Part shown: piece by piece, positions 1,153 through 11,272 of the stretch
Layout: each line of letters starts with the position of its first letter
Numbering within the stretch: the first letter of the stretch is position 1
Source: Streptomyces sp. NBC_00510
GTDB taxonomy: Bacteria; Actinomycetota; Actinomycetes; Streptomycetales; Streptomycetaceae
Length of the DNA: 64,000 bases
Assembly: GCA_036013505.1 (NCBI GenBank)
Contig: CP107851.1
Coordinates: forward strand, 4,473,501 to 4,537,500
Direction: 5' to 3'
The notes under the pieces: model-generated
Seen by the model: only the letters and a program-made list of their open reading frames with translations
What the model was told of the DNA's origin: nothing
The model's database searches: none
Position numbers and translations under genes: made by a program

Positions 1153-3393
1153 GTGAAGCACGAGGACGAGAACGACTTCTTCAACCGGTTGGAAGCCGAC
1201 CTGTCGTCCGACTTCGGCGGTGAGGTGGTGGACCTGGACAAGGCCCGCGCCGCCCGCGAGTCGGCCGACCCCCGACCCGACTCCGACACCGACGCGTCGT
1301 CCGACGCGATGGACGACCCGAACGCTTGGCGGTCCGGTGACGCGTCGGACGACGGCGGGCCGACTTTGGTGGACGCCCCGGGGCCGACCGGTCCGGGCGT
1401 GATGGAGCGCGTACGGGGTGCGCGGCGTCGGCCGGTGCTGCCCGGGTGGGCGACCTCGCGGCCGGAGTTCGTGAACGCGGCCGGGTGGCTGGCCGGATAC
1501 GCCGGGCACTCCACGGCGTTCCACGCGGTGCGCCTTCCCTGGTACGCAGCGGTGCTGACCGCCCGCGCGCCGGTGGGGTTCGCCAAGTTCGTCGGCGCCT
1601 CCCTGCGCTGGGTCTCCGACGCCGAGGGGGACCCGCTGCGTCGGGCCGCGGCCCGCCGTGAGGACGCCGGGGAGTACCTGAACCTGTCCCGGCAGCGGGA
1701 CCGGCGGGTGAAGCTGCGCGGCATCCTGTTCACCCTCGCCGCGATCGTCGGCCCGATCCTGGCGCTCGCGCTGTGGGTGCTGGGCCCGACGTGGATCCTC
1801 GCCGTGGCCGTCGCAGCACTCGTGACGGTGTTCGGGTTCGCCGGGGCGCCGGCCGACAAGCCCGTCGTCTCCCACGCCGTGGTCGCCACCGAGGTGGAAC
1901 GCCTCACCTCCACCGTCGTGGAACGCGCCCTCGGGGCGCTGGGCATTGCCGAGGTGAACAAGGCACTCGGCAAGGGCGGCGAGGGCATCCGCTTCCCCGC
2001 CCCGATCACCCGCGACGGCCCCGGCTGGCGCGCGGATGTCGACCTGCCCTACGGGGTGACGGTGACCGACATCCTCGACCGCCGGGACCGGCTCGCCTCC
2101 GGCCTGCGCCGCCCGCTCGGGTGCGTCTGGCCCGAGCCCGTCGCCGACGAGCACGCCGGCCGGATGATGCTGTGGGTCGGCGACAAGGCCCTCAACAAGC
2201 TGCCCCCGGTGGCCGGACCGCTGGCCAAGGCCGGCGCGGTGTCGCTGTTCAAGCCGGTCCCGTTCGGCCTTGACCAGCGCGGCCGGCCCATCGACATGAC
2301 GCTGATGTACGACAACGTGCTCATCGGCGCCATGCCCGGCATGGGCAAGACGTTCTCGCTGCGCCTGCCGCTGCTCGCCGCCGCGCTGGACCCGCTGGCG
2401 GAGCTGCTGGTGTGGGAGTTGAAGGGCACCGGCGACCTGGAGCCCCTGGCGAAGGTGGCGGCCGACTACGGCTCCGGGCCGGACGACGCCACCGCCGCGG
2501 CGGCGCTGGACTCCATCCGCTACGTCTACGGCGACCTGGAACGCCGCGCCAAGGTGATCAGTTCGCTGCCGAAGGACAAGTGCCCGGAGAACAAGGTCAC
2601 CCCCGACCTCGCCGCGGTGCGCTCGCTGGGCTTGCATCCGCTGGTCCTGGCGATAGACGAGTGCCAGGAACTGTTCTCCCACCCCGAGTACGGCAAGGAA
2701 GCCGGCGCGCTGTGCACCGGCATCATCAAGCGCGGCCGGGCCCTCGGAGTGATCCTGCTGCTGGCCACGCAGCGCCCGGACAAGGACAGCCTGCCCACCT
2801 CGATCAGCGCGAACGTGGGCACGCGGTTCTGCCTGCGGGTCATGGGTCAGATCGAGAACGACATGATCCTGGGGACTTCCGCGTACAAGAACGGGATCCG
2901 GGCGACGACGTTCACCAAGTCCGACAAGGGCATCGGCTACCTCGCCGGCGCCACCGACGATCCGCAGATCGTCCGGACCTACTACCTGGACAACCCGGCC
3001 GCGGACCGGATCTGCGAGCGGGCCCGCACTGCCCGCAAGAACGCCGGCACCCTCACCGGTCTCGCCGCAGGCGAGGCGCCGGAGCGCAGGGAGGCGGCGG
3101 ACACGCTGCTGGACGACGTGCTCGCCGTCGTGCCCTCCGGCGAGGCGAAGGTGTGGAACGACGTCGCGGTGGACCGGCTCGCCGAACTCCGGCCGGAACT
3201 GTACGGGCCGTGGGGCGAGATGGAGCCTGCCGACAAGGCACGGCAGCTCACCACCGCACTCAAGCCCCACGGCGTGTCCACGGGGCAGGTCGCCCGCCGG
3301 ATCAACGGCAAGACCGTCAACCGGACCGGCTTCGAGCGCGCCCACATCGCCGCGGCGATTGCGGAGCGTGACCGGAAGCGGTCCGCGGGCTGA
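1153..3393 (+). CDS. FtsK/SpoIIIE-type conjugative DNA translocase (TraB-like)
   Basis: A 746-residue ATPase expected to pump double-stranded element DNA between mycelia, the single-protein transfer mechanism of Streptomyces plasmids and AICEs. Visible parts: an acidic N-terminus (1-80), two membrane helices around 190-231, Walker A GAMPGMGKT near 392-400, Walker B LVLAIDEC near 497-504, and a C-terminal tail (about 690-740) with the sequence GVSTGQVARRING that looks like a small DNA-binding domain. GTG start with GAAGGA at 1141-1146. It is larger than pSAM2 TraSA and closer in layout to the long FtsK-like AICE proteins. A palindrome cluster follows its stop. Confidence 0.88.
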   Translation: MKHEDENDFFNRLEADLSSDFGGEVVDLDKARAARESADPRPDSDTDASSDAMDDPNAWRSGDASDDGGPTLVDAPGPTGPGVMERVRGARRRPVLPGWATSRPEFVNAAGWLAGYAGHSTAFHAVRLPWYAAVLTARAPVGFAKFVGASLRWVSDAEGDPLRRAAARREDAGEYLNLSRQRDRRVKLRGILFTLAAIVGPILALALWVLGPTWILAVAVAALVTVFGFAGAPADKPVVSHAVVATEVERLTSTVVERALGALGIAEVNKALGKGGEGIRFPAPITRDGPGWRADVDLPYGVTVTDILDRRDRLASGLRRPLGCVWPEPVADEHAGRMMLWVGDKALNKLPPVAGPLAKAGAVSLFKPVPFGLDQRGRPIDMTLMYDNVLIGAMPGMGKTFSLRLPLLAAALDPLAELLVWELKGTGDLEPLAKVAADYGSGPDDATAAAALDSIRYVYGDLERRAKVISSLPKDKCPENKVTPDLAAVRSLGLHPLVLAIDECQELFSHPEYGKEAGALCTGIIKRGRALGVILLLATQRPDKDSLPTSISANVGTRFCLRVMGQIENDMILGTSAYKNGIRATTFTKSDKGIGYLAGATDDPQIVRTYYLDNPAADRICERARTARKNAGTLTGLAAGEAPERREAADTLLDDVLAVVPSGEAKVWNDVAVDRLAELRPELYGPWGEMEPADKARQLTTALKPHGVSTGQVARRINGKTVNRTGFERAHIAAAIAERDRKRSAG

Positions 3394-3403
3394 CCGACCA
3401 GGG

Positions 3404-3493
3404 CCTCTAGCGCTAGGGGCTCAACCCTCTAGCGCTAGAGGTCCCGCTAGCAGCCCGCGCCCTATCTGATCTGGCCGCTAGCCGTTAGCGGCC
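3404..3493. repeat. Cluster of CTAG palindromes downstream of the tra gene
   Basis: Three palindromes lie between the translocase stop and the next gene: an imperfect CCTCTAGCGCTAGGGG (3404-3419), a perfect CCTCTAGCGCTAGAGG (3426-3441), and GGCCGCTA/TAGCGGCC arms around 5 nt (3473-3493). Six CTAG tetramers fall in about 75 bp, although CTAG is normally rare in Streptomyces DNA. The position fits a plasmid clt/transfer locus or an operator for a Kor-type repressor. Function is inferred only. Confidence 0.6.
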
Positions 3494-4982: not shown

Positions 4983-5891
4983 ATGACCTACGACGCACAA
5001 TCCGCGCTGCTGTCGGCAGCCTTACAGGCAGCCGAGCGCGGATGGCACGTCTTCCCGCTCCACGCCGGCCGCAAGACACCCGCCCTGCACGGGGAACGTC
5101 ACTGCCCCCGCACCGGCGACTGCACGACCGGGCACCGCAAGTGGGAACAGCGCGCCACCACCGACCCCGACCGCATCCGCGCCGCGTGGTCACAGAGGCC
5201 GTTCAACGTTGGCATCGCCACCGGCCCGGCCGGGCTGCTGGTCGTGGACCTGGACACGCTCAAGCCCACAGACAAGAAAGGAACACCTGACGGCGTAACC
5301 GCCTTCGCGGCGCTCTGCGAGCGCGCCGGACAGCCCGTGCCCACCACGCGCACCGTGCGGACCGCGGGCGGCGGAGTGCATCTGTACTTCACCGCCCCGC
5401 CCGGGGCCCGGCTGCATTCCACCGCGGGACGCCTGGCCAAGAAGATCGACACTCGGGGATGCGGCGGGTACGTCGTCGCCCCCGGCAGCAAGACGCCACA
5501 CGGCCCGTACACGGTCGTGGACAACACCCCCGTTGCAGAGCTACCCGAATGGCTCCACCACGCTCTGACGGCCCCTCAGGAGCCGACGGCGACGGCAATC
5601 CGGCTGGCGCCGGTCCGTAACGCCACCCGCTGCGCGGCGGTCGCCCTCGAACGCGAGAGTGCCGGCGTGGCCGCGCGCCGGGAGGCCGGGCGGCGCAATG
5701 AGGAACTGCTGCGGGCAGTCATCCGCGTGGGCCGGTACGTCGCGCGCGGCAACATCGACCGAACGGCCGTAGAGACGGCGTTTCAGGAGGCGGGCGAGTC
5801 GGCGGGACTCACCGCTGCCGAGTGCCGCGCCACGATCCGCAGCGCACTGGCCTACTCCCTGCGCACGGTCCGCCCGCGGGAGACGGCATGA
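4983..5891 (+). CDS. PrimPol-type DNA primase/polymerase of the element
   Basis: 302-residue protein with the bifunctional primase-polymerase N-terminal fold: WHVFPLHAGRKTPAL near the start, GIATGPAGLLVVDLD with the acidic metal-binding pair, and TAGGGVHLYF, the GGxHxYF-type catalytic motif. The C-terminal part is helical (REAGRRNEELLRAVIRVGRYV), as in primase C-terminal domains. The ATG at 4983 is chosen because the domain begins there; the frame stays open upstream only by chance. With the next two genes (both ATGA overlaps) it forms a replication operon; in AICEs such a PrimPol plus a DUF3631 ATPase takes the place of RepSA. Confidence 0.85.
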   Translation: MTYDAQSALLSAALQAAERGWHVFPLHAGRKTPALHGERHCPRTGDCTTGHRKWEQRATTDPDRIRAAWSQRPFNVGIATGPAGLLVVDLDTLKPTDKKGTPDGVTAFAALCERAGQPVPTTRTVRTAGGGVHLYFTAPPGARLHSTAGRLAKKIDTRGCGGYVVAPGSKTPHGPYTVVDNTPVAELPEWLHHALTAPQEPTATAIRLAPVRNATRCAAVALERESAGVAARREAGRRNEELLRAVIRVGRYVARGNIDRTAVETAFQEAGESAGLTAAECRATIRSALAYSLRTVRPRETA

Positions 5892-6250
5892 CCACGGCCG
5901 GATCCACCCCCCGCCTGAAACGCCTCACCTCCACCCCGGATCAGCCCAACCCCGCCACACCGGCCGGCAGGTCCGCGGCGGGTGGTGCGCCAAAGGTCGC
6001 CGCCGAAGGCGTCCTGTCATCTCTTCGCCCGGACCCGCCGCCCGGCAACGGACGCACCCCCGTGGCGTGGTTGCACGTGTCCGCGCCCACGTCCTGGCGC
6101 CGGGCCGCGGTCGCTCGGTCCTGGTGTGCCTGCGGACGCGACCGCAAAGCCACCGGGAAAGCCGCCGTCCTGCGCCTGATCGACGCCCACACCGCGCACC
6201 GGGACTTCTGTCCGTTGCGCACCCGAGACCAGAGGAGGAACGCCGCATGA
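5888..6250 (+). CDS. Small zinc-ribbon-like protein between PrimPol and helicase
   Basis: 120 residues. The first half is disordered (Pro/Ala/Gly-rich); the second half contains WLHVSAPTSWRRAAVARSW, then CACGRD and AHTAHRDFC, which would make a Cys/His zinc site. Both ends overlap neighbours as ATGA, so it is co-translated with the primase and the ATPase. A similar small protein is common at this point in AICE replication operons, and a role as primase or helicase adaptor is plausible. No activity can be assigned. Confidence 0.65.
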   Translation: MTTAGSTPRLKRLTSTPDQPNPATPAGRSAAGGAPKVAAEGVLSSLRPDPPPGNGRTPVAWLHVSAPTSWRRAAVARSWCACGRDRKATGKAAVLRLIDAHTAHRDFCPLRTRDQRRNAA

Positions 6251-7389
6251 GCGACGGCGCGGCTCTGCTGAGCGAGGTGGAAGCCTTCCACCGCCGATTC
6301 AACGTCTTCCCGCTGGAGGCCGCCTACGTCGCGGTGGTCCTGTGGGACGCCCACGCGCACCTACTGGACTGCTTCGACGCCACGCCCCGATTGGCGTTCC
6401 TGTCGCCGGAGCCGGCGAGCGGGAAGTCCCGGGCGCTGGAGATCGTGGAGACCCTGGTCCCGTATCCGATGGTCGCGGTCAACGCGTCAGCGTCCGCGCT
6501 GTTCCGGGCCGTGTCCGGGCTGAGCGCGCGGCCCACGATCCTGTTCGATGAGATCGACACCGTCTTCGGCCCCAAGGCCGGGGAGAACGAACAGCTCCGG
6601 GGATTCCTCAACGCCGGACACCGCCGCTCCGGAGTGATGTACCGGTGCGTGGGCGACGGCGCCAACCAGCAAGTGCAGGAGTTCCCCTCGTTCTGCGCCG
6701 TGGCCGTCGCCGGGCTCGGCTCGCTGCCGGACACGATCCTGACCCGCTCGGTCATCATCCGCATGCGCCGCCGGGCCCGCAACGAGCGCGTGGAGCCGTT
6801 CCGGCAGCGCGTCCACGAGGGCGAGGGACACGTACTGCGGGACCGCCTCGCCGCGTGGGCCGACAGCGTCCGGGACCGGGTCGAAGGTGCTTTCCCGCAG
6901 ATGCCCGAGGGCGTCACCGACCGGCCCGCAGACGTGTGGGAAGCCCTGCTCGCGGTGGCGGACGCTGCCGGCGGGGACTGGCCCAAGCGGGCCCGGGAAG
7001 CCTGCGTGGAGCTGGTCAACGCCGCCAAGGTGGACGACAAGGGCAGCACCGGCATTCGGCTGCTGACCGACCTGCGGGACCAGGTCTTCAACGGCATCGA
7101 CCGCCTGCCCACCGTCGCCGTACTGGACCGGCTCCACAGCCTCGAAGAGGCACCGTGGGCGGATATGGCCGGCAAGCCGCTGGACGCACGCGGGCTGTCC
7201 CGGATGCTGCGCGAGTACATGACCGGCGACAACACCCCCATCGCCGCCCGCAACATCAAGGCCGGCGGGAACGTCATGAAGGGCTACTACGCCACCGACC
7301 TCCACGACGCGTGGCAGCGGTACTGCCCACCCCCCTCTGAAAGTCCGCTACTTCCGCTACCTCCGCTACCGCGCAGGTCAGAGCCCTAG
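6247..7389 (+). CDS. DUF3631 AAA-type ATPase, putative replicative helicase
   Basis: 380 residues. LSPEPASGKSRALEIVETL (about 54-72) is a Walker-A-like loop, and PTILFDEIDTVFG (about 97-109) the Walker B. RSVIIRMRRR holds a candidate sensor/arginine finger. The C-terminal region with KPLDARGLSRMLREY and GNVMKGYYATDLHDAWQRY is the DUF3631 domain found behind primases in actinobacterial mobile elements. It probably unwinds DNA for the PrimPol at the iteron array, whose first three iterons lie inside the 3' end of this gene and encode SPLLPLPPLPR. The start ATG overlaps the preceding stop. Confidence 0.8.
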   Translation: MSDGAALLSEVEAFHRRFNVFPLEAAYVAVVLWDAHAHLLDCFDATPRLAFLSPEPASGKSRALEIVETLVPYPMVAVNASASALFRAVSGLSARPTILFDEIDTVFGPKAGENEQLRGFLNAGHRRSGVMYRCVGDGANQQVQEFPSFCAVAVAGLGSLPDTILTRSVIIRMRRRARNERVEPFRQRVHEGEGHVLRDRLAAWADSVRDRVEGAFPQMPEGVTDRPADVWEALLAVADAAGGDWPKRAREACVELVNAAKVDDKGSTGIRLLTDLRDQVFNGIDRLPTVAVLDRLHSLEEAPWADMAGKPLDARGLSRMLREYMTGDNTPIAARNIKAGGNVMKGYYATDLHDAWQRYCPPPSESPLLPLPPLPRRSEP

Positions 7390-7562
7390 ATGAGGTAGCG
7401 GATAGCCCCCGCGTATCCGCTACCTCGCCGCTTCATCCGCTACCCGCGCTGGCCACGCTGGCCCAGGGCCGGTAGCGGCTTTATCCGCTACCGCTACCCC
7501 TATCCGCTACCTCGATCATGCCCCTGACCAGGGCGGTAGCGGAGGTAGCGGAAGTAGCGGAC
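7343..7562. repeat. Iteron array with 30-bp perfect inverted repeat (putative origin)
   Basis: At least eleven exact TCCGCTAC/GTAGCGGA octamers plus near copies occur in 220 bp. Three in one direction with 9-bp period (7344-7369) are mirrored by three inverted ones with the same period (7536-7561), making 7343-7372 and 7533-7562 a perfect 30-bp inverted repeat. Single copies of both orientations fill the centre (7395, 7416, 7436, 7484, 7503; near copy 7472). The array sits between the replication genes and xis/int. It could be the replication origin bound by PrimPol/DUF3631, or a transfer site read by the translocase. Function inferred. Confidence 0.75.
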
Positions 7563-7612: not shown

Positions 7613-7801
7613 ATGGCCCGCCCGCCCGTACTCAAGCTCCCCGAAGTCCTCGAAGAGATCGGCATGAGCCGCGCCGCCTTCTACCGGATGCGCGCCCGCG
7701 GCCAAGCACCGCGTCTCATCAAGTTGCCCAACGGGCAGATCCGCTGCCGTCGCACGGATCTCGACACGTGGTGGGCGACCTACGAGCTGAACGCCCACTG
7801 A
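7613..7801 (+). CDS. xis: Excisionase (AlpA/MerR-like helix-turn-helix)
   Basis: 62-residue DNA-binding protein with a winged-helix excisionase fold: LPEVLEEIGMSRAAFYRMRARGQAPRLIKLPNGQIRCRRTDLDTWW, where MSRAAFYRM is the recognition helix and the end resembles the AlpA/HTH_17 family. It should bend attachment-site DNA and push the integrase toward excision. ATG start with AAGGAG at 7600-7605. The integrase gene begins 59 bp downstream beyond a strong hairpin, the usual xis-int order of AICEs. Codon use matches the element. Confidence 0.85.
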   Translation: MARPPVLKLPEVLEEIGMSRAAFYRMRARGQAPRLIKLPNGQIRCRRTDLDTWWATYELNAH

Positions 7802-7808
7802 TCAAGCC

Positions 7809-7842
7809 GTAGGGCCCGCCGGAGGCTACCGGCGGGCCCTAC
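7809..7842. terminator. Perfect 14-bp hairpin between xis and int
   Basis: GTAGGGCCCGCCGG (7809-7822) pairs perfectly with CCGGCGGGCCCTAC (7829-7842) across a 6-nt loop and is followed by TTCT. It lies 7 bp after the xis stop and 18 bp before int. It may partly terminate xis transcripts and so set the Xis/Int ratio, or protect the mRNA. Confidence 0.7.
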
Positions 7843-7860: not shown

Positions 7861-9276
7861 ATGAAACTGACGTACGACGTGCGCATTTACTCGCTGGAGA
7901 CCCGCTCAGACCGGCCCAAGCCGTACCGCTTGCGCTGGCTTGTGGGTACGAAGAAGCATTCCAAGAGCTACACGCTCAAGGCCCAGGCAGACGGGCGACG
8001 CTCGGAGTTGATGAGCGCCGTACGTTCCGGCGATCAGTTCGATGAAGAGTCCGGCCTGCCGGTATCGGAGCTGCGGGCGCAACGCGGTTCGGTCACCTGG
8101 TATCAGCACGCCCGTGACTACGTGGACCGCAAGTGGGACCTGGCGCCCGCTAAATCGCGCAAGTCGTACGCCGATGCCCTGGCCACGATCACGCCCGCCC
8201 TCGTCAGGACGCGCGCCGGCATGCCAGAGCAATCCGCCCTGCGACGTGCCCTCTACGGCTGGGCTTTCAACCGGAATCGCTGGGCTGAGACCCCGCCCAA
8301 GGAGATCAGCGACGCCCTCGCATGGATGGAGCGCCACTCACTGCCCATATCGGCGCTGGAAGATCCGGCGACTCTCCGACAGGCATTGGACGCCCTAGGG
8401 AAGAAGCTGGACGGCAAGCCGGCCGCCGCGCGTACCGCCCGCCGTAAGCGAGCGTGCCTGAGCGATGTCCTGGGCTTCGCTGTGGAGGCGCAGTACTTCA
8501 CCATGCCGGTCAATCCCCTCGCCGCCGTGAAGTGGACGGCGCCGAAGACCGTCGAAGACGTGGACCCCGAAGCCGTCGCAAATCCCCGGCAGGTGCGCGC
8601 TCTGCTGTCCGGAGTCCGGGAACAGGGCAAGCGAGGGGAACTCCTGGAAGCGTTCTTCGGGTGTCTCTACTATGCCGCCATGCGCCCGGCAGAGGCCGCG
8701 GCGCTAACCCGGGACCGGTGCCACCTGCCCGAGACCGGATGGGGTGTCCTGACCCTGCGGAGGGGCGTCGTGCGGGCGGGCCGCGGCTGGACTCGCGACG
8801 GCAAGGCACACGAGACCCGGCACCTGAAAGCCCGCGCCGAACAGGACTCCCGCCCGGTGCCCATCCCTCCGCACTTCGTCGCGATGCTCCGGGCCCACCT
8901 CGACCAGCACGGCACTGCCCCGGACGGCCGGCTGTTCCGCACGGCACGCGATGGGCTGCTGCAGGAGAGCGGCTACGGGGACGTGTGGGCCAAGGCGAGG
9001 GCCGCGGCGCTCTCGCAGGAGGAAGTGGCGTCTCCCCTCGCCCGGCGTCCGTATGACCTTCGCCATGCGGGGGTGTCGTTCTGGCTCAGCTCAGGAGTGG
9101 ACCCAATGGAATGCGCACGGAGGGCGGGGCACAGCCTCGCCGTCCTTCTCCGGGTCTACGCCAAGGTCCTGGCGCACACCCGGGAACGGGCAAACGAGCG
9201 CATCGACGCGGCGCTCAGGGAGTGGCACACGCCAGAGCCTCCGTCCCCCGGAGGACACCTGGAGGACACGCCCTGA
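7861..9276 (+). CDS. int: Tyrosine site-specific integrase of the element
   Basis: 471-residue tyrosine recombinase that should catalyse integration into, and with Xis excision from, tRNA-Tyr. Catalytic residues are readable: Arg275 in AAMRPAEAAAL, Arg401 in RPYDLRHAG (with Tyr in place of the box-II His, as in many actinophage enzymes), His424 in RRAGHSLA and the nucleophile Tyr433 in RVYAK. The N-terminal arm-binding and SAM-like domains fill residues 1-220. ATG with GGAGATCC in front. Its last 75 codons and terminator are repeated about 1.8 kb downstream next to tRNA-Tyr. Position and target resemble SLP1, which also uses tRNA-Tyr. Confidence 0.92.
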   Translation: MKLTYDVRIYSLETRSDRPKPYRLRWLVGTKKHSKSYTLKAQADGRRSELMSAVRSGDQFDEESGLPVSELRAQRGSVTWYQHARDYVDRKWDLAPAKSRKSYADALATITPALVRTRAGMPEQSALRRALYGWAFNRNRWAETPPKEISDALAWMERHSLPISALEDPATLRQALDALGKKLDGKPAAARTARRKRACLSDVLGFAVEAQYFTMPVNPLAAVKWTAPKTVEDVDPEAVANPRQVRALLSGVREQGKRGELLEAFFGCLYYAAMRPAEAAALTRDRCHLPETGWGVLTLRRGVVRAGRGWTRDGKAHETRHLKARAEQDSRPVPIPPHFVAMLRAHLDQHGTAPDGRLFRTARDGLLQESGYGDVWAKARAAALSQEEVASPLARRPYDLRHAGVSFWLSSGVDPMECARRAGHSLAVLLRVYAKVLAHTRERANERIDAALREWHTPEPPSPGGHLEDTP

Positions 9277-11180: not shown

Positions 11181-11190
11181 TTCGCTCCTG

Positions 11191-11272
11191 TGGCGGCGCC
11201 AGGATTCGAACCTGGGTAGGCTAAGCCGACGGATTTACAGTCCGCTCCCATTGGCCACTCGGGCACACCGCC
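11191..11272 (-). tRNA. tRNA-Tyr (anticodon GTA); attachment gene of the element
   Basis: Read on the minus strand it begins GGCGGTGTGCCCGAGTGG, has the GTA anticodon (complement at 11236-11238) in loop CTGTAAA, a long variable arm as expected for tRNA-Tyr, a T-arm GGTTCGAATCC and an acceptor end CGCCGCC plus discriminator A, without encoded CCA. The 3' end faces the integrase side, which is the geometry of integration into a tRNA 3' end that leaves the gene intact. SLP1 is known to use the tRNA-Tyr of S. coelicolor. Confidence 0.93.

Follow-up and report, generated by a model that had tools for sequence, protein, structure and literature searches.

A mirror-symmetric iteron array at the end of a DUF3631 (RepAM) gene is a probable replication origin of a Streptomyces integrative and conjugative element

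The window, by which we mean the whole 64-kb stretch of Streptomyces DNA that was analysed, carries the right part of an integrated AICE-type element at a tRNA-Tyr gene. A 53-bp direct repeat lies at 11188 and has a second copy ~9.8 kb before the window start; because the two copies probably mark both ends, we estimate the element at ~21 kb. The window contains the following features of the locus:

53–676: GGDEF-domain (diguanylate cyclase-like) gene, upstream of tra (Pfam)
1153–3393: FtsK-like Tra (homology)
5019–5891, + strand: PrimPol, the likely primer maker (Pfam; PF09250 domain at 5019–5552, frame stop at 5891)
6247–7389, + strand: RepAM, a DUF3631 (PF12307) AAA+ protein with a predicted C-terminal winged helix (Pfam)
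7343–7562, unstranded: proposed RepAM-type replication origin (oriV), a mirror-symmetric iteron array (counts and conservation in relatives)
7613–7801, + strand: xis-like AlpA/HTH_17 gene, downstream of the proposed origin (Pfam)
7861–9276, + strand: site-specific integrase (50% identity to the integrase annotated in NZ_CP108827.1)
11188–11240, unstranded: probable attachment-site repeat, the 3' part of tRNA-Tyr (53-bp repeat; tRNA at 11190–11272)

RepAM matches DUF3631 with an E value of 1.1e-62 and 211.9 bits, against a cut-off of 24. We assumed that it starts at the ATG at 6247 in a frame open from 6067, and its residues are numbered with codon 6250–6252 as residue 1. Tra has no Pfam match, is 30% identical to an annotated FtsK/SpoIIIE protein in NZ_CP108827.1, and hits the NCBIfam models TraB (E 1.2e-9) and FtsK (E 1.6e-5) far under their curated cut-offs. 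The integrase gave no Pfam or NCBIfam match at the limits used. Together, the DUF3631 initiator, the FtsK/SpoIIIE-like Tra, and the integrase with an att repeat at a tRNA gene are the features of a RepAM-type AICE. The available part of Ghinet et al. 2011 (PMC3218068) describes DUF3631 as the RepAM initiator family of pMEA300, reports that RepAM sometimes adjoins PrimPol and that AICEs carry an origin, and in that part makes no mention of an iteron or inverted repeat. DUF3631 matches occur in 93 of 150 sampled Streptomycetaceae genomes. Elsewhere in the element, two 16-bp near-palindromes, CCTCTAGCGCTAGGGG and CCTCTAGCGCTAGAGG (3404–3441), start ~10 bp past the tra stop codon and are a candidate clt site or terminator, and between xis and int lies a 14-bp perfect inverted repeat around a 6-bp loop (7809–7842), perhaps a terminator or attenuator.

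Eleven exact copies of the octamer TCCGCTAC lie between 7344 and 7561, seven on the + strand and four on the − strand; the whole 64-kb window has 16, and shuffles predict 1.37 for a stretch of that size. Its tandem form, TCCGCTACNTCCGCTAC, occurs only at this array in the 10.1-Mb genome. Relaxing the word to CCGCTAC gives 13 copies in 7343–7562, with the map >9>9>32<22>20>35<13>6>13>32<9<9<. The triplets of 9-bp period at the two ends (7344–7369 and 7536–7561) are exact mirror images, and the ends form a 30-bp perfect inverted repeat that is the longest in the 64 kb for arms at most 600 bp apart (the next are 16, 16 and 15 bp). The symmetry extends further, with 54 of 63 bases matching between 7343–7405 and the reverse complement of 7500–7562, and each arm consists of an iteron triplet, then a box, then an opposed iteron. 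The array is genuine and greatly exceeds chance expectation. The first three iterons (7344–7369) lie within the RepAM reading frame, whose stop codon is at 7387–7389. A sequence-only reading of this DNA had described at least eleven octamers with mirrored 9-bp triplets, a 30-bp perfect inverted repeat, and first iterons that code for the helicase C-terminus, and our counts bear out each of these points. The parts of the array are:

7343–7405, + strand: left arm, with three direct TCCGCTAC iterons (7344, 7353, 7362), a spacer with the GGTCAG box, and an inverted iteron (7395–7402)
7343–7372, + strand: left half of the 30-bp perfect inverted repeat
7373–7381, + strand: left box, GCAGGTCAG, the second conserved origin element
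7406–7499, unstranded: central region, with CCGCTAC at 7417, 7437, 7485 and 7491 and GTAGCGG at 7472
7500–7562, − strand: right arm, the mirror of the left, with an iteron (7503–7510), a spacer with the box, and three inverted iterons (7536, 7545, 7554)
7524–7532, − strand: right box, CCTGGTCAG, at the same offset from its iteron triplet as the left box
7533–7562, − strand: right half of the 30-bp perfect inverted repeat

Within the array, which alone was measured for this purpose, there is no AT-rich unwinding region: it has 66% G+C, with 71% in its center and 71% in the window. Nor does the array hold a clear DnaA box, the single match to the consensus (7481) having two mismatches.

We looked for the same interval next to related initiators. 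From 242 confirmed RepAM relatives in genome contigs we took the best 80 as a close set (RepAM identity 72–90%, mostly in records named Streptomyces), of which 79 could be tested with at least 1.5 kb of downstream sequence, L014 ending at a contig edge. All 79 have an array, defined as one CCGNNNN word occurring six or more times; in L084 the word CCGCCACA replaces CCGCTAC. The wider set comprised 208 loci (80 + 40 + 3 + 4 + 80 + the window) from genomes and database records, with redundancy kept, and included other iteron words: CCGTCCC, CCGTACC, CCGTAAC, CCGGAAC, CCGCCAC, CCGCAAC and more. After dropping three short regions, we analysed 205 for their top 7-mer and for the box. The top 7-mer exceeds all 100 shuffles in 136 of the 205, divided by RepAM identity into 111/117 at 65% or more, 3/9 at 48–65%, 21/74 at 36–48% and 1/5 below 36%. 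Close relatives thus almost always have the array, whereas in distant ones it is patchier, shorter or missing. In the record of Pseudomonas phage Phipami28 (L140), which has a host of another phylum, a RepAM relative of 33–35% identity (5001–6257) carries TCCGCGACA-type repeats at the 3' end of its gene and the annotation note Rv2655c.

A usable iteron word was present at 164 of the 208 loci, the other 44 lacking a CCGNNNN word of at least five copies, and 143 of the 164 have at least six clustered iterons from which geometry could be read. Outward ends of the > ... < type occur at 136 of these 143 loci, a left arm at 117, a right arm at 113, and both at 106. The same spacing and box offset recur on both sides, 59 left and 55 right arms having spacing 32 and offset 4. 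Among the relatives listed, spacing is often base-exact (for example >9>9>32<22>20>35<13>6>13>32<9<9<) while inner iterons are gained or lost. The part corresponding to 7406–7499 is the most variable or is absent, and both the inner iterons and the distance between the arms vary widely. The mirror layout is largely conserved, and the symmetry that had been remarked on in a single origin-type array is kept in most relatives. One locus, L057, has five tandem iterons of 9-bp period in its right arm where three are usual.

Two relatives with the array are complete circular records, NZ_CP108827.1 (13.5 kb, RepAM 93% identical) and NZ_CP108973.1 (14.3 kb, 77%). Both encode an integrase, a helix-turn-helix (xis-like) protein, RepAM, PrimPol and FtsK/TraB, and in both the array lies between RepAM and the xis-like gene. 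These records are in keeping with a replicating circle, or they may instead represent an excised, non-replicating form.

The second conserved element, the GGTCAG box, is retained while iteron words change. Searched as CAGSTCA, it is present in 179 of 205 regions, with a mean of 1.25 copies; shuffles average 0.09 and control segments 0.05. Its frequency by RepAM identity is 113/117 at 65% or more, 4/9 at 48–65%, 62/74 at 36–48% and 0/5 below 36%. Of 63 regions in which PrimPol was not detected, 49 also have the box, and so do 41 of the 46 such loci at 36–48% RepAM identity. A group with RepAM ~41% identical to that of the window (L160–L189 and others, mainly Streptomycetaceae) mostly has the box and no PrimPol in the stretch examined. 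A single box is not rare, as three exact copies in the 64-kb window show, so its case rests on its position across many loci. In right arms, the loose form G[GC]TCA is forward in 104 of 118, in both directions in one and missing from 13; in left arms it is forward in 78 of 126, reversed in 35 and missing from 13. These loose counts have no chance control of their own, the shuffle and segment controls applying to CAGSTCA. That strict form is forward in 73 of 117 left arms, reversed in seven and missing from 37, and forward in 66 of 113 right arms and missing from 47. Because the left box is reversed in 35 of 126, the mirror is not universal. Most reversed left boxes belong to a group with a left spacing of 44, and nearly all of 32 loci in that group retain TGACC. 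Loci with a reversed left box include L033, L036, L039 and L040, and their right arm is unchanged.

We asked which protein the iterons follow. PrimPol, detected with a domain-based profile, was found at 143 of the 208 loci, and several of the other 65 have short upstream sequence. The notion that PrimPol is missing from close relatives with long upstream sequence was largely abandoned once the domain profile had been applied; L017 is still without it. From the 164 loci with a usable word, 27 were set aside for want of PrimPol or for a short region, leaving 137 with a clear word and PrimPol. Across these, the RepAM tree requires at least 26 changes of the iteron 8-mer and the PrimPol tree 45, compared to ~66 with shuffled labels, and the choice of C or A at base 8 takes seven changes on the RepAM tree and 21 on the PrimPol tree. 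Iteron distance correlates with RepAM at a partial rank coefficient of 0.64 and with PrimPol at 0.08. Among pairs of loci, which are not independent of one another, 57 of 58 with PrimPol less than 30% but RepAM more than 30% different differ in their iteron. Less favorably, only eight of 15 with RepAM less than 20% but PrimPol more than 50% different share the 8-mer and seven do not. The tree changes, the partial correlation and the pair counts therefore tie the array to RepAM and not to PrimPol.

This covariation may trace to a short stretch near the end of the initiator:

7252–7275, + strand: proposed iteron-specificity segment of RepAM, with N335 (7252–7254), K337 (7258–7260), N341 (7270–7272) and V342 (7273–7275)

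Among the 106 CCGCTAC loci, residue 337 predicts base 8 at 105, compared to 98 for the next column and 68 for the majority class: C accompanies Lys337 at 67 of 68 loci and A accompanies Arg337 at 38 of 38. Over all words, at 158 loci (the 164 less six with a short or badly aligned RepAM), C goes with Lys at 69 and Arg at two, A with Arg at 71 and Asp at two, G with Arg at 12, and T with Arg at two. The exceptions are L199 and one CCGTCCCC locus, both with Arg and C; residue 337 is Lys in two distant CCGGAACC loci and Arg in one CCGGAACA locus. As a control, we took 100 loci that have both proteins: base 8 is predicted at 99 of them by the best RepAM column and at 73 by the best PrimPol column, with a majority class of 62. 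PrimPol is thus disfavored as the iteron reader, by this count and by the fit of the iteron to the RepAM tree. A pair test corrected for descent gave five supported pairs for residue 337, a mean of 4.9 of 5 pointing one way, and a median p of 0.0625; with five independent pairs, p 0.05 is unreachable in this set. Among the columns listed, residues 335 and 342 track base 5, whose C/A states are few (11 CCGC loci) and related. The sequence-only reading had advised comparing the interval in related elements for covariation of iteron and protein, and this check turned out in its favor. It had suggested a PrimPol/DUF3631 machine as the partner of the array; covariation makes the DUF3631 protein the most likely partner, while PrimPol is not supported as the iteron reader.

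The structural model of RepAM has a pLDDT of 80 and a pTM of 0.71, with residues 71–160 at 57–71. The C-terminal 102 residues are modeled as a winged helix with a pLDDT of 89.5, and the strands of its wing hairpin, 334–338 and 341–347, contain the residues proposed for iteron specificity. Fold matches to this domain alone are all weak (best Z 6.7), so we claim no specific relative for it. RepAM has no sequence match in the PDB. Its ATPase part aligns with the MCM 3f8t at Z 16.4 (3.0 Å over 217 residues), and RavA, which is not an MCM, scores 14.2. Foldseek, with modest TM-scores, also returned NrS-1, BrxL, ORC, RuvB, PriRep1, the SaPI5 primase-helicase and D5/E5, and the fold-level matches include 7pds and 7ola. 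An MCM-type N-terminal domain is absent: alignment to the ATPase part (3f8t 198 onward) begins at the first residue of the model, and the open frame allows at most 61 extra residues upstream.

A helicase with an iteron origin downstream of its gene is a known kind of arrangement. In SaPI Rep and SCCmec Cch2, the C-terminal domain binds iterons directly downstream of the protein's own gene, origin sequence is an efficient start point for the SCC primase, and SaPI Rep is said to bind apparently as two hexamers (PMC7581432, partial text). Like SaPI Rep and SCCmec Cch/Cch2, as far as that text describes them, RepAM belongs to a mobile element, is a putative AAA+ helicase with a predicted C-terminal DNA-binding domain, has iterons directly 3' of its gene, and is accompanied by an element-encoded primase; SaPI5 and PriRep1 are among its Foldseek matches. 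Unlike them, it is apparently of a different helicase family (DUF3631), and here 8-bp iterons form a two-arm mirror with an extra GGTCAG box in an origin that overlaps the helicase gene.

Closer to this host, the Streptomyces plasmid pWTY27 has a predicted primase-polymerase, RepB, a separate RepA that binds a repeat array, and evidence for bidirectional replication (PMC3583192, partial text). Its 300-bp iteron region next to repAB likewise combines a long inverted repeat with adjacent 7–8-bp repeats that run in both directions, although the iteron word differs. On pFP11 (NC_006911.1), too, PrimPol has an ATPase-like neighbor; its ATPase part gives a weak alignment to RepAM, and it has no DUF3631 domain. 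The RepA of pFP11 binds iterons (PMC3583192, partial text), and this neighbor is presumably that protein. The pRN1 protein ORF904 combines primase, helicase and C-terminal winged helix and has its origin directly downstream of its gene, but that origin is a stem-loop with no iterons (PMC4234260, partial text). As here, the RepAM of pMEA300 is of the DUF3631 family (PMC3218068, partial text).

Taken together, sequence comparisons indicate that the array belongs to RepAM, that iteron and wing residues covary, that the two-arm layout and box are conserved, and that circular relatives carry the array. On this basis, the array is very probably a replication origin read by RepAM, in a RepAM-type actinomycete integrative and conjugative element. 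Physical binding by RepAM, ring loading, priming at the box and bidirectionality we infer. RepAM would read the CCGCTAC(C) iterons through the wing of its C-terminal winged helix and assemble an MCM-like AAA+ motor at the array. If each arm, with its iteron triplet, GGTCAG box and opposed iteron, is one loading site, then two rings would face each other. The box would probably be the point at which strands open or primers begin, and PrimPol may make the first primer there; host enzymes would then complete replication, and the excised circle would be copied, probably bidirectionally.

The SV40 T-antigen origin is a site of double-ring assembly. It and the RSF1010 origin are likewise sites for two initiations, on opposite strands or facing, although the proteins are unrelated. 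RSF1010 uses the ssiA/ssiB hairpins, unlike this array (PMC4234260, partial text). Two opposed loading arms are a sensible reading of the symmetry, and we lean slightly toward two opposed loading events at the mirror arms. Considerably more tentative, and in our view somewhat doubtful as a whole, is a double-ring origin in which each mirror half-origin loads one hexamer of a self-loading, MCM-like helicase on G+C-rich DNA without an AT-rich element, the GGTCAG box is a shared opening or start element, and a wing code (residue 337 Lys or Arg for base 8; residues 335 and 342 for base 5) sets specificity.

Iteron arrays commonly serve copy-number control or handcuffing. The array could accordingly be an origin with a single loading event, its arms being duplicated binding sites and its replication unidirectional, and the wide variation among relatives in inner iterons and inter-arm distance would suit this reading. 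So would the reversed left box, since it means that the two arms need not be equivalent. Yet the same spacing and box offset in both arms would be unneeded for mere extra sites, and we regard single loading as unlikely, though worth keeping in view. The long inverted repeat might instead act as a DNA hairpin or cruciform, as at pRN1, where an essential stem-loop downstream of the primase-helicase gene is the origin (PMC4234260, partial text), and a single strand of the array does fold far better than shuffles (z −11.2). However, relatives with a left spacing of 44 and a right spacing of 32 have unequal spacers as well as the reversed left box, so their arms cannot pair throughout, and protein–iteron covariation accounts for the repeats without a fold; a hairpin is improbable.

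A transfer site (clt/TRS) bound by the FtsK-like Tra, another role considered in the sequence-only reading, is very improbable. Streptomyces plasmid clt sites do have short direct and inverted repeats (PMC3583192, partial text), but Tra homologues in the close set (56 of 80 relatives, within limited flanks outside which more Tra genes may lie) are only 23–77% identical, with a median of 28%, against a nearly constant iteron word, and the near-palindrome pair after the tra stop codon is an alternative candidate. Although the array ends ~50 bp upstream of xis, a role as an operator, or as an accessory array for recombination, in Xis/Int expression or excision is extremely improbable, and Xis is not supported as a binder: only 12 of the 79 close relatives gave a homologue of this Xis (tblastn, E up to 0.01), and the array is kept in all 67 where none was found. 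Integrase homologues of at least 35% identity were found in 15 of the 79.

We return to the reading of the array as a RepAM origin. Three things appear new to us: a mirror of two arms that also carries a second conserved element, the box; an array that has no AT-rich region; and the wing code. In the literature that we searched, no origin is described for the DUF3631/RepAM family; the primary work on pMEA300 RepAM, reportedly te Poele et al. 2006, lies outside that search. With an origin confined to 220 bp and a candidate specificity switch of one residue, helicase loading, incompatibility and the evolution of origins can be tested directly in a harmless host. If the wing code is true, K337R would swap the preference of RepAM between TCCGCTACC and TCCGCTACA, that is, from C to A at base 8. 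The array and RepAM could also supply orthogonal replicons for Streptomyces. Finally, if both the double-ring reading and the wing code hold, a small code in the wing would let elements diverge in replication compatibility.
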